Assembly: GCA_947088345.1 (NCBI GenBank)
Contig: CAMUGE010000016.1
Span: 1-55,638 of the forward strand
Direction: 5' to 3'
From: an uncultured Roseburia sp.
GTDB lineage: Bacteria; Bacillota; Clostridia; Lachnospirales; Lachnospiraceae
Length of the DNA: 55,638 bases
How positions within the stretch are numbered: position 1 is the first letter of the stretch; every line of letters begins with the position of its first letter. Under the pieces are notes generated by a model. The model had not been told where the DNA came from and did not search any database. It saw nothing but the letters and a program-made list of their open reading frames with translations. A program made the position numbers and the translations under genes. Positions 32,892 to 48,781 of this stretch are shown here, piece by piece.

Positions 32892-34371
32892 TTTTTACGC
32901 ATTTGGAACCGTCCAGAAGCTGCATTTTCATCCGGTAATACCCTGGCGTCATATCCATATAATGTACATGCGGATTTACAAACCTCTGCTCTTCCTCCCA
33001 GATTTCCTCAGCCAGCTGACGTTTCGTGTACTCCCGTATCTCTTTTAACGCCGGAAGTTTTGCAACCAGTTTTCCGTCCCGAAAAACCGGAGCAAGAAGC
33101 GGTTTTGCGCTGCAGTCGGTATAAGCAAGACTCTTCCATGGTTTTGCCGGGTCGATATATGTAAACGGCCTCGACAAATCAACCTCCTCCGTCCATTCCG
33201 CAATCAGGTCTGCACGCGCTTTTTTATTTTTATCGTAGATACGATAGACCTTTTTCAATCCGGGATTCGTAATCTTCTCGATATTTTCCGAGATTTTAAT
33301 ACGCGGGCAGTAAATCCCGTTCTCTTCCACTGCCGCAATTTTATAGACTGCCCCAAGAAGCGAAATGGATTCTTTCGAGTAAGCGCTTGACGCGCCTGTA
33401 ATCAGACGCTCTCCCACGCCGTACGCATCAATCTTTGCCCCCTGGCTGTTTAATGAGCTGATGGTATATTCATCCAGGCTGTTTGACACAATAATCTTAC
33501 AGTCGTCCAACCCTGCATCATTCAGCATTTCCCGCGCACGCACCGAAAGATATGCCAGATCTCCGCTGTCAATGCGCACGCCCTTTAACCGTTTTCCAAG
33601 CGGCTTTAGCACTTCTTTTGCCGTACGAATGGCGTTCGGAATACCGGACTCCAACGTATCATACGTATCGACTAAAAGCACCGTATGATCCGGATAATTC
33701 TCGGCGTAATGCCGAAACGCATCAAACTCGTCCCTGTAATACATCACCCAGCTGTGCGCCATTGTCCCGCTGACAGGAATTTGAAACATCTGTCCCGCAA
33801 GAACAGTTGCGGTGCCGGCAGCCCCTCCAATGTAGGAAGCTCTCGCACCGTAAACTGCCGCATCCATATTGTGCGCCCGCCGCGCGCCAAAATCCGAAAC
33901 CGCCCTGCCGCCCGCGGCCTTTACGATGCGTCTTGTCTTTGTTGCAACAAGCGACTGATGATTGATCTGTGTTAAAATCGCCGTTTCCACCAACTGTGCG
34001 TCAATCAACGGCGCAATCACGGTTATGACCGGCTCATTCGGATACATTACCGTACCTTCGGGAAATGCATAGATATCCCCTTTAAACTCAAAATCTTTCA
34101 GGTAATCAAGAAAATCCGCCGTAAATATACGCAGCGATGCGAGATAATCAATATCATCCCTGGTAAAATGCAGATTCTCTATATATTCTACAACCTGTTC
34201 CAATCCGGCAAATATGGCGTAACCGCCGCCATCCGGATTTCTCCGGTAAAAAACGTCAAATGCGACGCGCGCATCTTTGTCTCCGTCGTTAAAATAGCCG
34301 TTTGCCATGGTCAGTTCATACAAATCCATTACCATAGAAAGGTTGCGTTCCACCGACTGTCCTGTTATCAT
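32884..34371 (-). CDS. pncB: Nicotinate phosphoribosyltransferase
   Basis: About 495 residues. Conserved features: MDLYELTMANGYF at the start, the TQINHQSLVATKTRRIV region near residue 130, phospho-site AVSDFGARRAHN near 160, the catalytic SGTMAHSWVM near 210 and RIDSGDL near 275. Makes nicotinate mononucleotide from nicotinate and PRPP in NAD salvage. The ATG at 34371 has GGAGG six bases before it; the 23-codon upstream extension is unlikely. Confidence 0.93.
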   Translation of the reverse strand: MITGQSVERNLSMVMDLYELTMANGYFNDGDKDARVAFDVFYRRNPDGGGYAIFAGLEQVVEYIENLHFTRDDIDYLASLRIFTADFLDYLKDFEFKGDIYAFPEGTVMYPNEPVITVIAPLIDAQLVETAILTQINHQSLVATKTRRIVKAAGGRAVSDFGARRAHNMDAAVYGARASYIGGAAGTATVLAGQMFQIPVSGTMAHSWVMYYRDEFDAFRHYAENYPDHTVLLVDTYDTLESGIPNAIRTAKEVLKPLGKRLKGVRIDSGDLAYLSVRAREMLNDAGLDDCKIIVSNSLDEYTISSLNSQGAKIDAYGVGERLITGASSAYSKESISLLGAVYKIAAVEENGIYCPRIKISENIEKITNPGLKKVYRIYDKNKKARADLIAEWTEEVDLSRPFTYIDPAKPWKSLAYTDCSAKPLLAPVFRDGKLVAKLPALKEIREYTKRQLAEEIWEEEQRFVNPHVHYMDMTPGYYRMKMQLLDGSKCVKNV

Positions 34372-34550
34372 AGGAATCCTCCATTTCCGTTCAACTCTCT
34401 GCCATATTGCCAGTATAACCCCAGCCAATAAACCTTTCATTTTACTTGTCTAAATTTACATCCGGCGTGTTGTCCTCATTTGTCGATGCCGCTTTCCCGC
34501 TCTGCCTTGCAGACTGAGAATTAATTCTGCATGAAACACACCGGTAATTC
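34372..34550. other. Leader region of pncB
   Basis: No gene. The only structure I see is a weak ACACACC/GTGTG pairing at its left-to-repeat border (34536-34555). A promoter for pncB must lie here or beyond the repeats but no consensus pair stands out. Confidence 0.3.
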
Positions 34551-34700
34551 GTGTGAGAAGAACTTCTAAAGCTCGCAGCAGATCCGCTAACGCGAAACAG
34601 GTTCGCGCGCTAAGAAGTTCTAAGTCTCACACCAGAGAATCCCCAAAAACAGGGGATTCTTCGCGCAGATTTGAGTCGCGGCAGAGCCGCGACATGGGGG
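34551..34700 (+). repeat. Structured multi-hairpin repeat, copy A
   Basis: A closing stem of 17 bp (GTGTGAGA 34551-34558 and AGAACTTCT 34559-34567 with AGAAGTTCT 34613-34621 and TCTCACAC 34625-34632, AAG bulge) encloses a conserved CGCGAA-ACAGG-TTCGCG hairpin. It is followed by a stem capped by AAAAACA (34636-34660), a conserved CAGATTTGAG, a GC-rich stem (34676-34692) and CATGGGGGTTAG. Same architecture as copies B and C with different stem sequences. Confidence 0.75.
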
Positions 34701-34861
34701 TTAGCGTGAAAAGTACTTGTAAGGCTCATGCCAAAGGGCAAAACGCGAAACAGGTTCGCGCGCCAACAAGTACTAAGTTTCACGCCGAAAAACGCCAAAA
34801 ACAGGCGTTTTTCATACGGATTTGAGATTCCGCTCCGCGGAATCATGGGAGTTAGTTTGAA
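34695..34861 (+). repeat. Structured multi-hairpin repeat, copy B
   Basis: Directly abuts copy A. Closing stem GCGTGAAA/TTTCACGC and AGTACTTGT/ACAAGTACT (34704-34720 with 34766-34785, AAG bulge at 34775-34777), inner CGCGAA-ACAGG-TTCGCG hairpin, AAAAACA-capped stem GAAAAACGCC/GGCGTTTTTC (34787-34813), GATTTGAG, ATTCCGC/GCGGAAT stem (34827-34843), CATGGGAGTTAG. Compared with copy A almost every stem base pair is changed but pairing is kept. Confidence 0.75.
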
Positions 34862-34865
34862 GTAT

Positions 34866-35720
34866 CTAGTATTCTTTTTCAATAAATAATACGCCGAGCG
34901 TCCCCGGACCGCAGTGAGATGAGATCACGCCTCCCGCTCTCGTGACAATAATCTCCTTAAAATGATTTAAACTTTTCAGATAATCGGACACCTCTTTTAC
35001 AATCTCGTCGTCACATCCGGAATGCGTGATAAATACACGGTCTTCTTTCGCACTGCGCAGCGCGGTCTCCATATCTTTTACATAGTTTAAAATCACGGCG
35101 GAAAGCTTTCCCCGGTATTTCTTCCCGGCGTTCATCACCCCGTCCGTAACTGCAATTCTTGGATGCAGTTTTAACATACCGCCCGCCATTGCGGCAAGCC
35201 CGCTGCATCTGCCGCCCCGGTGCAGATAAATAAGCGTGTCCACAACAAAACTTGCGCGCACAAGAGGTCTTATCTTCTCAATATAGGAGACAATCTCCTG
35301 TCTTGGCTTATTTTGTTTTGCCAGCAGAGCAGCTTCTATGACGAGATGGCCGATCCCTGTCGATAAATTCCTCGAATCTATCACAGTCACCTGTTCTGCA
35401 GCATTTAGTTCCTCTGCTGCCATGCGCAGTACATTGCCGTTTGTGGACATCTGTTCTGAAATACAAAATGCAATGATCTCATTTTGATCATCCAATATTT
35501 TTTTCATTGCTTCCAACACATCCTCCAGAGATGCCGCTGAAGTTTTTGGCGTTGTCCTGTTCGCATCCGACCACGCGTAGATATCTTCGGGACTGATCTC
35601 GGTCCCATCCCGGTATTCTTTATCCCCCAAAAGGATATGAAGCGGAACAATTGTTATCTCATATGCTTCCACCAGTTCTTTTGTCAAATCACATGTACTG
35701 TCGGCAATTATTTTTACCAT
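34866..35720 (-). CDS. DegV-family fatty-acid-binding protein
   Basis: About 284 residues, DegV fold throughout: IIADSTCDLTKEL at the start, TSAASLEDVLEAM near 80 (TSqps-type loop), IDSRNLSTGIGHL near 125, RGGRCSG near 165 and SSHCGPGTLGVLF at the end. Family members bind fatty acids and can serve as FakB subunits of fatty acid kinase. The ATG at 35720 has a perfect AGGAGG. It overlaps the upstream histidine-phosphatase gene by about 30 bases. Confidence 0.88.
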   Translation of the reverse strand: MVKIIADSTCDLTKELVEAYEITIVPLHILLGDKEYRDGTEISPEDIYAWSDANRTTPKTSAASLEDVLEAMKKILDDQNEIIAFCISEQMSTNGNVLRMAAEELNAAEQVTVIDSRNLSTGIGHLVIEAALLAKQNKPRQEIVSYIEKIRPLVRASFVVDTLIYLHRGGRCSGLAAMAGGMLKLHPRIAVTDGVMNAGKKYRGKLSAVILNYVKDMETALRSAKEDRVFITHSGCDDEIVKEVSDYLKSLNHFKEIIVTRAGGVISSHCGPGTLGVLFIEKEY

Positions 35721-46901: not shown

Positions 46902-47357
46902 TTATAACTCACTAATTTTAGTTTTTTGAGTGTCTTCTCTCAGATACTCCAAAATTTCGGGAACGCCGACACCCTCTAAGGAATTGACATGGAATATCGT
47001 TTTACAGCCTGCAATCTCAAGCCATCTGTCTGCCATTGGGATATTGGCGTTCGGCAGGTCTATTTTGGTCACAATTCCAATGCATTCCCGATTTGCCTGG
47101 CATGTCACATTCGGCGGAAAAATCGAGTAAGGTTCCGTCGCCGAGACCAGAATACCGACAACATCGGCTTCATAGGTATAGAGCGCAAGGGCTTTTCCAA
47201 GCCTGTGGCTCTGCGCATACTCCCCCGGCGTATCAATGACACTCTCAAAATGATTGACATACTGCGTCTTGTAATAATGAATTTCTTCACCGCGCAGCGC
47301 CTGTGTCAGTGTTGTCTTTCCGGCCTCGCTGCGCCCCATTAAAATTAATTTTCTCAT
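46902..47357 (-). CDS. EutP/PduV-family GTPase-like protein
   Basis: 151 residues: P-loop GRSEAGKTTL at residues 8-17, DTPGEY near 43, TKID near 97. Family members attach to microcompartments and are proposed to affect their movement. The start shares ATGA with the end of the PduU-like gene. Confidence 0.9.
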   Translation of the reverse strand: MRKLILMGRSEAGKTTLTQALRGEEIHYYKTQYVNHFESVIDTPGEYAQSHRLGKALALYTYEADVVGILVSATEPYSIFPPNVTCQANRECIGIVTKIDLPNANIPMADRWLEIAGCKTIFHVNSLEGVGVPEILEYLREDTQKTKISEL

Positions 47358-47725
47358 GTCTTTGTAATCGGGCAGACAGTGTAACCTAACTTTTCTTCCA
47401 CATAATCCTGCATGGCTTCAATCGCGGCCTGTACTTCGCTGACCGTTCCTGTGATAATCAAAGAACCGCTAAAGCGGTCTACAAACCCAAGATTAATCCC
47501 GCTTGCTTTCATCGCAATATCGGCCATGATAATTGCCGTCTCCGACGGCGTTACCGTTGTGACGCCGATTGCAGCTCTCTCGTAGTCGATTTTAGGATCA
47601 AGGCCCAGTTTTTCATACAAAACCTTGTCCGGACTCGCAATAATATGCGCCAGCGTCACCTGACGCCCCGGCACCGACTCCTGTATAATTCTCATTCCGT
47701 TTTCCAGTGTATTTGAATCCAGCAT
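47354..47725 (-). CDS. pduU: PduU/EutS-like circularly permuted BMC shell protein
   Basis: 123 residues. N-terminal beta-barrel segment RIIQESVPGRQVTLAHIIAS, central PSETAIIMADIAMKASGINLGF and C-terminal SITRT-like PITKT, as in PduU. In PduU the barrel plugs the pore; EutP/PduV is its known partner and lies next to it here. Confidence 0.92.
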   Translation of the reverse strand: MLDSNTLENGMRIIQESVPGRQVTLAHIIASPDKVLYEKLGLDPKIDYERAAIGVTTVTPSETAIIMADIAMKASGINLGFVDRFSGSLIITGTVSEVQAAIEAMQDYVEEKLGYTVCPITKT

Positions 47726-47765
47726 ACAATACCTCTCAAAGATTGCCGTCCTTTCGGCTTTCCTA

Positions 47766-47945
47766 CGCTAACCTCCATGTCGCGGCTCTGCCGCGACTCA
47801 AATCTGCGCGGAGAATCCCCTGTTTTTGGGGATCTCTGGCGTGAAACTTCGTACTTGTTGCCGCGCGAACCTGTTTCGCGTTTTGCCCATTGACATGAGC
47901 CTTACAAGTACTTTTCACGCTAACTCCCATTCGCCCGCAATGGCG
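47766..47945 (-). repeat. Structured multi-hairpin repeat, copy C, inside the BMC operon
   Basis: Reverse orientation relative to copies A and B. Closing stem arms at 47904-47920 and 47839-47858 (GCGTGAAA and AGTACTTGT families, one mismatch), CGCGAA-ACAGG-TTCGCG hairpin, AAAAACA-capped stem at 47811-47836, CAGATTTGAG, TCGCGGC/GCCGCGA stem (47780-47796), CATGGAGGTTAGCG. It fills most of the 261-base gap between the activase and pduU genes, with a further GCCCGC-CATT-GCGGGC hairpin at its edge. Confidence 0.75.
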
Positions 47946-47986
47946 GGCATTCCAATCAGGATTGTGAAATTTCTAATTTCACGCTG

Positions 47987-48781
47987 CTAACCGCCAATCT
48001 GACACTTAAGTCTCGACACACTCTCCACTGTTTTCTTTAGCATTGCCATATGTTCGTTTTCCGGCGGGAGGATGTCCCCCATCAGATATTCTCTCGAAAG
48101 TCCCTCATATTTATCCTGCCCAAGCCTGTGATAGGGCAAAAGATGTATCTTACTGACTCCGGGCAGCCGGTCGGAAAACCTTGCGATCGACGCAATCTCC
48201 TCCGGCGTATCGTTAAACGTCGGGATAACCGGGACGCGTATGACAAGGTTTGTCATTCCCGATTCCGCTATTTTTCTCGCGTTCAAAAGCATCAGGTCGT
48301 TTGCCCGTCCCGTAAATTCTTTGTGTTTTGCTATATTCGTATGTTTTATGTCCATCAAATATGTGTCAAGATACGGCAGAATCCGCTCAATCACTTCATA
48401 AGGCGCGCATCCCATACTTTCCATCGCAGTGTTGATCCCGATTGATTTTGCCGCCATAAGCAGGGCCTGCGCAAAATCCGGCTGGCACAGGCTCTCCCCG
48501 CCGGAGAGTGTCAGCCCGCCGCCGCTTCTGCGGTAATAGCCGCGGTCTTTTTCCACGACCTCCATCACTTCTTCCACAGTGACGTCCTGTCCGATCACTT
48601 TCGTTTTCCCGGCCACTCTCATAGTCTGTATCCCGAACTCCTGCGACTCCGGATTGCAGCACCAGCGGCATCTTAAGACACACCCTTTCAAAAACACAAT
48701 CGTGCGGATTCCTCTGCCGTCATGAATGGAATATCTCTGAATATCAAAAATACGCCCTCTTGTCTGCAATATATTCTCCAT
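47987..48781 (-). CDS. Glycyl-radical enzyme activase (radical SAM)
   Basis: 264 residues. Radical SAM cluster CVLRCRWC near residue 34 and the GGE motif TLSGGES near 93. It lacks the extra ferredoxin-like domain with two [4Fe-4S] clusters found in longer activases, so it belongs to the short, PflA-like form. It installs the glycyl radical on the dehydratase encoded directly upstream (nine-base gap). Start supported by GGAGGCGGG. Confidence 0.92.
   Translation of the reverse strand: MENILQTRGRIFDIQRYSIHDGRGIRTIVFLKGCVLRCRWCCNPESQEFGIQTMRVAGKTKVIGQDVTVEEVMEVVEKDRGYYRRSGGGLTLSGGESLCQPDFAQALLMAAKSIGINTAMESMGCAPYEVIERILPYLDTYLMDIKHTNIAKHKEFTGRANDLMLLNARKIAESGMTNLVIRVPVIPTFNDTPEEIASIARFSDRLPGVSKIHLLPYHRLGQDKYEGLSREYLMGDILPPENEHMAMLKKTVESVSRLKCQIGG

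Follow-up and report, generated by a model that had tools for sequence, protein, structure and literature searches.

The ends of IS200/IS605-type elements and of their non-autonomous derivatives, the PATEs, are characterized by subterminal hairpins, the lack of terminal inverted repeats, and insertion 3' of a short motif. BOX elements of Streptococcus are composed of the modules boxA, boxB, and boxC; PMC3049150 counts 125 of them in the S. pneumoniae genome studied, describes terminal inverted repeats and target duplications, and states that some copies encode the stop codon of a neighboring gene. For the GTAG class of REPs a cognate RAYT is reported, whereas the CGTC class lacks one, according to PMC3733652, in the main text of which Roseburia, Clostridium, and Firmicutes are unmentioned.

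The window analyzed here is a stretch of 55,638 nucleotides from the assembly of an uncultured Roseburia sp., referred to below as the source genome. The repeats found in it are best explained as modular, non-autonomous mobile intergenic repeats of the BIME/BOX kind, a reading with an estimated probability of roughly 0.6. They occur in high and variable copy number, are present or absent at orthologous sites, have their left border at TAG, which is often a stop codon, and form arrays joined at GTTAG.

Architecture of the Repeat Units

A tandem pair, copy A (34551-34704) and copy B (34705-34855), forms two direct repeats with a spacing of 153 nt, whose stems differ between the copies yet pair (Table 1). 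A sequence-only reading of the window had described tandem structured repeats at this position, and the description is borne out: the stem pairs and common single-stranded parts that it named are all present, and the fold stands at a z of about −7 against shuffles (−6.93 for the stretch around A and −6.74 around B, with none of 200 shuffles folding as well). The fixed AAG bulge after P2 and the end of copy B at 34855 supplement or correct that reading. In both copies, P1 and P2 form a long hairpin with the 3-nt AAG bulge on its 3' side, the inner P3-P4 region is enlarged by a CGCGAA-ACAGG-TTCGCG stretch, P5 has an A-rich loop, and the right end consists of GATTTGAG, the hairpin P6, and ATGGRGTTAG. 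The first G of P1 in copy B (GCGTGAAA) is the final base of copy A. A DegV-family gene and an NAPRTase gene, both encoded by the minus strand, flank the array, which is atypical both in this antisense orientation to its neighbors and in the absence of TAG directly before it. The orthologous site of the related genome G032 (L170, corresponding to window 34.4-34.9 kb) holds other sequence with no clean empty site, a short ORF-like stretch taking the place of the array.

Copy B is not followed by a further unit; the third copy of the window is located 13 kb away (47919-47768, minus strand). Together with a shorter gamma module it makes up a minus-strand array (47986-47768) flanked by a radical-SAM gene and a BMC shell gene. 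The surroundings of this copy (46902-48781) contain microcompartment-type genes for radical SAM, BMC shell, and PduV-EutP proteins. With the P1-P5 covariance model, copy B scores 81.2 bits, copy A 78.0, and the third copy 55.7, compared to 15.8 for the next match in the window, A and B themselves being among the 35 training rows of the model.

Table 1. Positions of repeat features and the adjoining stop codon in the window
Feature	Position	Strand
Copy A core: P1 GTGTGAGA/TCTCACAC, P2 AGAACTTCT/AGAAGTTCT, AAG bulge, inner P3/P4 with long loop variant	34551..34632	+
Copy A hairpin P5: GAGAATCCCC-AAAAACA-GGGGATTCTT	34633..34664	+
Copy A right end: GATTTGAG, hairpin P6, ATGGGGGTTAG	34668..34704	+
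Copy B core: P1 GCGTGAAA, P2 AGTACTTGT	34705..34785	+
Copy B hairpin P5: GAAAAACGCC-AAAAACA-GGCGTTTTTC	34786..34814	+
Copy B right end: GATTTGAG, hairpin P6, ATGGGAGTTAG	34819..34855	+
Third window copy, beta type: core, P5, and right end	47768..47919	-
Gamma module: GTGAAATT hairpin, then GATTGG, hairpin, ATGGGAGTTAG; in tandem with third copy	47920..47986	-
TAG stop codon of radical-SAM gene 47987-48781(-), directly left of inserted array	47987..47989	-

A full unit is comprised of a left hairpin beginning at YRTGARAAG (P1-P2 with the AAG bulge, enclosing P3-P4), the hairpin P5, and a right end of the form GATTTG-hairpin P6-ATGGRGGTTAG; P5 is missing in some copies. Units of tandem arrays are joined at GTTAG. 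A three-unit array at L363 (G000:C21:42622-42988) shows three model matches of equal score at a regular spacing of 134 bases. By inspection, the left tip YRTGARAAG and the right tip GGRGGTTAG do not form an inverted-repeat pair, and a DDE MITE was rejected because terminal inverted repeats are absent.

Other modules share the ends of the main family. Gamma-type modules contain GTGAAATT...AATTTCAC, GATTTG, and a hairpin GCCCGCC-AAA-GCGGGC; the delta module is longer and ends in GCGAACTGCGTTCGC...ATGGRGGTTA. Further module types are found at 47920-47986 (minus strand) of the window and at the loci L017, L019, L025, L012 (C18), and L048. The module types with common ends look like a mosaic superfamily. 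At positions 1372-1501 of L011 (G000:C9), a match to the group II intron D1-D4 model RF02001 (61.3 bits; gathering threshold, 32) adjoins the left side of the element and ends at the start of the repeat array.

Size and Distribution of the Family

Model R1, a covariance model of P1-P5, was built from 35 training rows, 28 of them from a pattern scan. The covariance search of related genomes that the sequence-only reading had proposed gives 84 copies in the source genome and 41 and 36 in the relatives G032 and G215, followed by 15 in G004, 14 in G020, 11 in G023, and 10 in G177; at the low end of the 12 genomes stand G303 with 5, G019 with 3, and G035 with 1, and G016 and G297 show none, with at most 150 candidates scored per genome. 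A BLAST search of the source genome with 331 bases returns 64 matches, of which one unit can hold several.

Beyond these genomes, at least 6 of 246 in an even sample of the order contain matches, a lower bound owing to the stricter filters in that sample, and all six belong to the same family. An exact short-core pattern matches 83 stretches in the genome collection. The 80 listed matches span 49 accession prefixes by hand count; 75 of these 80 bear the title Lachnospiraceae, Roseburia, Parablautia, or Lachnoclostridium, and the other five are titled uncultured bacterium, Ruminococcus sp., Bacterium C-53, Bacterium 1xD42-87, and Clostridiales bacterium. Phage and plasmid records give no match to a 311-base query. 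Mean identity is 0.91 for copies of the same assembly (68 pairs) versus 0.82 for copies of different assemblies (793 pairs), calculated for part of the pattern-scan loci.

The sequence-only reading could assign the repeats to no known riboswitch, ribozyme, or CRISPR repeat; at gathering threshold, the 4227 Rfam models return no hit in the window or in 10 related loci. At a lax threshold, three matches appear far below their gathering scores, the best being S35 with 18.8 bits versus 69. Searches of the open-access literature turned up no description of these repeats. PMC8040213 reports 3,161 candidate structured RNAs, and a model of this family may already be among its supplementary candidates. 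The repeats apparently constitute a large, undescribed family of short folding DNA elements spread through the gut Lachnospiraceae, a host group of major gut bacteria.

Left Border and Stop Codons

Removal of 22 tandem followers from 105 model matches leaves 83 first-in-array copies, a set free of the search pattern but not of model R1, 28 of whose 35 training rows come from the pattern scan. TAG directly precedes 54 of the 83 copies, and a same-strand in-frame stop codon (ORF of at least 90 codons) lies 0 to 11 nt upstream in 50. On the opposite strand, the same border gives 0 of 83; as a control this is weak, because that side is taken up by the element itself. Of the 105 matches, 27 are at borders already seen; the 61 copies with borders outside the earlier loci show a TAG in 42 cases and a nearby stop in 35. 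The first, pattern-biased set shows TAG at 69 of 107 copies, with 35 tandem followers set aside, and a stop within 11 nt at 57 of 102.

A stop codon is located exactly at the border in 31 of the 83 copies, comprising 30 TAG and 1 TAA, whereas the 18 stops found 2 to 4 nt from the border include 10 TAA. What is recognized thus seems to be the motif rather than the stop codon itself. Base −4 is G in 36% of the 83 copies, which gives a left flank of NTAG. Among 75 copies with both flanks called, out of 94 examined, 44 are oriented along both neighbors, 15 and 10 along one, and 6 against both. This sense orientation would follow from a target TAG located at stop codons.

Stable hairpins behind stop codons are also typical of intrinsic terminators, but copies A and B have no T-run behind P5 or P6, a terminator scan of 34300-35000 finds a single site, outside the array, and a same-strand gene follows 65 of the 94 copies examined, so that a terminator function is very improbable.

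Occupied and Empty Orthologous Sites

The guess of a non-autonomous mobile repeat was the better supported of the two offered by the sequence-only reading, the other being a new structured RNA, as copy numbers and empty sites indicate. At the 47.8-kb site, G032 is without a 219-base insert and reads GGTTAG|TGTGAGAAAGCC, compared to GGTTAG[insert ending GGAGGTTAG]CGTAGGAAAGCC in the source genome; both the third copy and the gamma module are lacking, and the orthologous loci of G032 and six further relatives contain no model match. A two-unit array on contig C1 (L020) has no counterpart in G032 (ACTAG|TGTGAGAAACC). The end of a livG-like gene forms a third site, at which the stop codon TAG is followed directly by an array in both the source genome and G032, but by a different one in each. 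The loci of 13 other relatives were read here out of 30: 12 show the gene end without the element, and the remaining one, L265, is out of register there. A model match at an E value of 1 or better is absent from all 13.

The two empty sites and the 12 element-free relatives at the third site support probable insertion behind TAG, as judged by sequence comparison. Both clean G032 empty sites read TAGTGTGAGAAA and retain TGTGAGAA, the first bases of the element, and could therefore be deletion scars rather than virgin targets. With respect to a target-site duplication, TAG stands on both sides at two empty sites, but the element's own end is TTAG. Other comparisons between the source genome and G032 are mixed. 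L030 reads AAAAAGGAGGTCAG in G032 versus AAAAGGAAGGTAG plus the element in the source genome; the element of L006 is present in both genomes; at L011 and L013, what G032 retains of it is partial or degenerate; the element of L028 is missing there with a diverged spacer; and L005, L009, L026, and L029 offer no clean junction.

One site is common to G019 and G004, genomes with 3 and 15 copies. Its flanking coding DNA is 85 to 86% identical and the element matches at 93 of 100 positions, an identity that is in part forced, as the loci were found via the core sequence. All seven differences are in unpaired positions or the tail and the stems are unchanged, a conservation that hints at function in place.

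Covariation of the Stems at the RNA or DNA Level

The 105 model matches, of which 100 are distinct, come from 92 stretches in eight genomes and show two-sided changes in 33 of 34 pairs, and not near-identical copies with random stem decay. These changes amount to 579 two-sided cells versus 175.8 in shuffles, a value reached by none of 500 shuffles, in an alignment fitted to model R1 and with a shuffle control that takes no account of relatedness among copies. Pairing reaches 95.5% and falls to at most 49.9% when the partner is slid. Smaller sets agree: 35 chosen sequences, 28 of which stem from the P2-fixing pattern scan, have two-sided changes in 21 of 35 pairs (134 cells versus 39.7 in shuffles), and 33 rows (32 distinct; 6 pattern seeds, the remainder BLAST or model matches) have them in 21 of 25 core pairs (128 cells versus 37.3). 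The right-end hairpin P6 shows 36 two-sided cells versus 11.0 in shuffles; its number of changed pairs, 4 of 7, is no excess over shuffles (386 of 500 reach 4), and in the underlying alignment A4 one of 19 rows (L012) is misplaced but still counted. Truncated 5' ends and overrunning 3' ends affect one L005 row in alignment A1 and two in A3.

Stems of RNA tolerate G.U pairs but as a rule not A.C. In the repeats, G.T and A.C mismatches are both rare, with 51 versus 63 of 3,296 cells. Eight tRNAs from the fetched sequences, found with ARAGORN, which itself favors G.U, show 10 versus 0 of 175 cells (Fisher p 0.0006 for 10:0 against 51:63, uncorrected for relatedness). In the earlier alignment A2 (first 107 of 116 rows), 39 G.T stand against 73 A.C, 30 of the latter supplied by a single conserved position, and a smaller count of P1, P2, and P5 leans the opposite way, though not far (21 G.T, 14 A.C). 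Fifty terminator-like hairpins give 16 versus 13, too weak a contrast to serve as a control. The sequence-only reading had taken the covariation as a sign of selection on RNA; the compensatory changes are indeed strong, but as G.T is no commoner than A.C, covariation does not establish selection at the RNA level. The equal rarity of the two mismatches indicates that the stems are maintained in the form of near-perfect Watson-Crick palindromes. This is what DNA-strand-symmetric upkeep predicts, and such upkeep fits the mismatch pattern at least as well as RNA selection does. Predicted routes for such upkeep are hairpin-templated repair, gene conversion among copies, and recognition as folded single-stranded DNA; RNA roles may be compatible with the same pattern. 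The scarcity of G.T pairs despite strong covariation is a warning that covariation alone proves no functional RNA.

A cis-acting structured RNA, intercistronic or in the 3'-UTR, could act at stop codons through stabilization, processing, or re-initiation and could have multiplied because it is useful. The strong covariation, the stop-codon position and gene-sense orientation, and the unchanged stems at the G019/G004 site agree with such an RNA. The missing G.T excess speaks against it, as do a copy number that varies between 0 and 84 across the 12 genomes, the different arrays that the source genome and G032 carry at one site, and the lack of a common function among the six window neighbors looked up (NAPRTase, DegV, His phosphatase, radical SAM, BMC shell, and PduV-EutP). 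Taken together, a structured RNA of this type appears unlikely, and mobile intergenic repeats are preferred.

Right End and Translation

The flank behind the terminal TTAG is YRTGAAAA-like, as seen in 64 flanks, some of which are chance matches or belong to following modules. The start codon of an ORF of at least 50 codons lies behind the right end in 12 of 39 arrays (1 to 2 nt) and in 7 of 29 arrays of a second set (0 to 3 nt), some of these start codons being chance frames inside a following module; the Shine-Dalgarno and right-end expressions were self-chosen and differ slightly between the two sets. The spacing between the element's GGRGG and such start codons is that of a Shine-Dalgarno sequence. 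Ahead of a start codon the tail would act as such a sequence, and insertion between operon genes could thereby be tolerated. Entry of the element between an existing Shine-Dalgarno sequence and its start codon was considered, but is retained only in the tentative extension described below: in the first set, an SD-like left flank accompanies a following start codon in 9 of 12 arrays versus 7 of 27 (p 0.006), which is unrepeated in the second set with 2 of 7 versus 9 of 22 (p 0.68; pooled p 0.10, at least four arrays occurring in both sets).

A tentative and rather doubtful extension is an element adapted to the translation map, which would insert behind TAG, chiefly at stop codons and sometimes in the spacer between Shine-Dalgarno sequence and start codon. 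Its own GGRGGTTAG before RTG would restore the ribosome-binding site and keep insertion into operons silent, while an unrecognized single-strand-reading enzyme, other than the known Y1 transposase, would keep its hairpins perfect at the DNA level. The frequent position of the element at the stop-start junction of operon genes bears on operon translation and transcript processing, and the family is relevant to the misprediction of terminators and ncRNAs as well as to how mobile DNA becomes harmless.

Proposed Mobilization and Candidate Enzymes

For movement of the repeats, a mechanism can be proposed. Units would insert just 3' of TAG, and the TTAG end of a unit would serve as the target for the next one. 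As each unit ends in TTAG, the next could land behind it, and arrays would arise without further assumption. The moving enzyme may read the folded single strand, as is the case for HUH/Y1 elements; by analogy, the proposed logic resembles HUH/Y1 single-strand transposition.

The search for transposases covered the Y1 family and tied no mobilizing enzyme to the ends of the element. PF01797 (Y1) has no match in the source assembly, which is 90.5% complete, so that a missed Y1 gene is possible. Four of 11 other genomes match, two of them with weak fragments, and the copy-rich G032 is among those without a match. The four strong Y1 loci are IS200-like, with ends that by eye are unlike those of this family. 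These IS200-like elements have hairpin ends of their own and are located at L247, L251, and L252 in G020 and L248 in G004; one right end reads CTGACTTAG.

Descent from the REP/BIME lineage, with movement in trans by a RAYT (Y1 HUH transposase), is suggested by the bulged imperfect palindrome after a short fixed motif and by the mosaic arrays, which resemble E. coli REPs as presented in PMC8266576. It is nevertheless improbable, as the GTAG tag is inconstant, with a G at −4 in only 36% of 83 copies, units are about 150 nt long with several hairpins, and the Y1 family is unmatched in the source genome and in 7 of 11 others.

Tandem, structured, covarying units joined at GTTAG further recall the attC-like sites of chromosomal integrons. 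The core consensus of attC is GTTRRRY. The junction GTTAGY of the repeats does not fit this core, and the integron integrase model TIGR02249 is above its cutoff in none of eight genomes. Sub-threshold matches to TIGR02249 occur in all eight and likewise in all 14 control genomes, and are thus most likely other tyrosine recombinases; an attC origin is scarcely credible.

Comparison with Known Systems

With IS200/IS605-type ends and PATEs the family has in common subterminal hairpins, no terminal inverted repeats, and apparent insertion 3' of a short motif. In contrast to these, the left hairpin of the repeats begins at the very tip, and no transposase was found with these ends in the Y1 search.

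REP/BIME sequences show a similar clustering of imperfect, bulged palindromes beside a short fixed motif, as described in PMC8266576 and PMC3733652. The present unit differs in extending over P1-P6, without a constant unpaired GTAG or CGTC at the end of a single 5- to 13-bp hairpin, and the source genome is rich in copies yet has yielded no Y1 gene.

Like the BOX elements, the repeats are modular, hairpin-rich, and dispersed between genes. The description of BOX in PMC3049150 sets them apart through their tips, which do not form inverted repeats, and through their joining at GTTAG. The right end of the present family in addition carries GGRGGTTAG, at times before a start codon.
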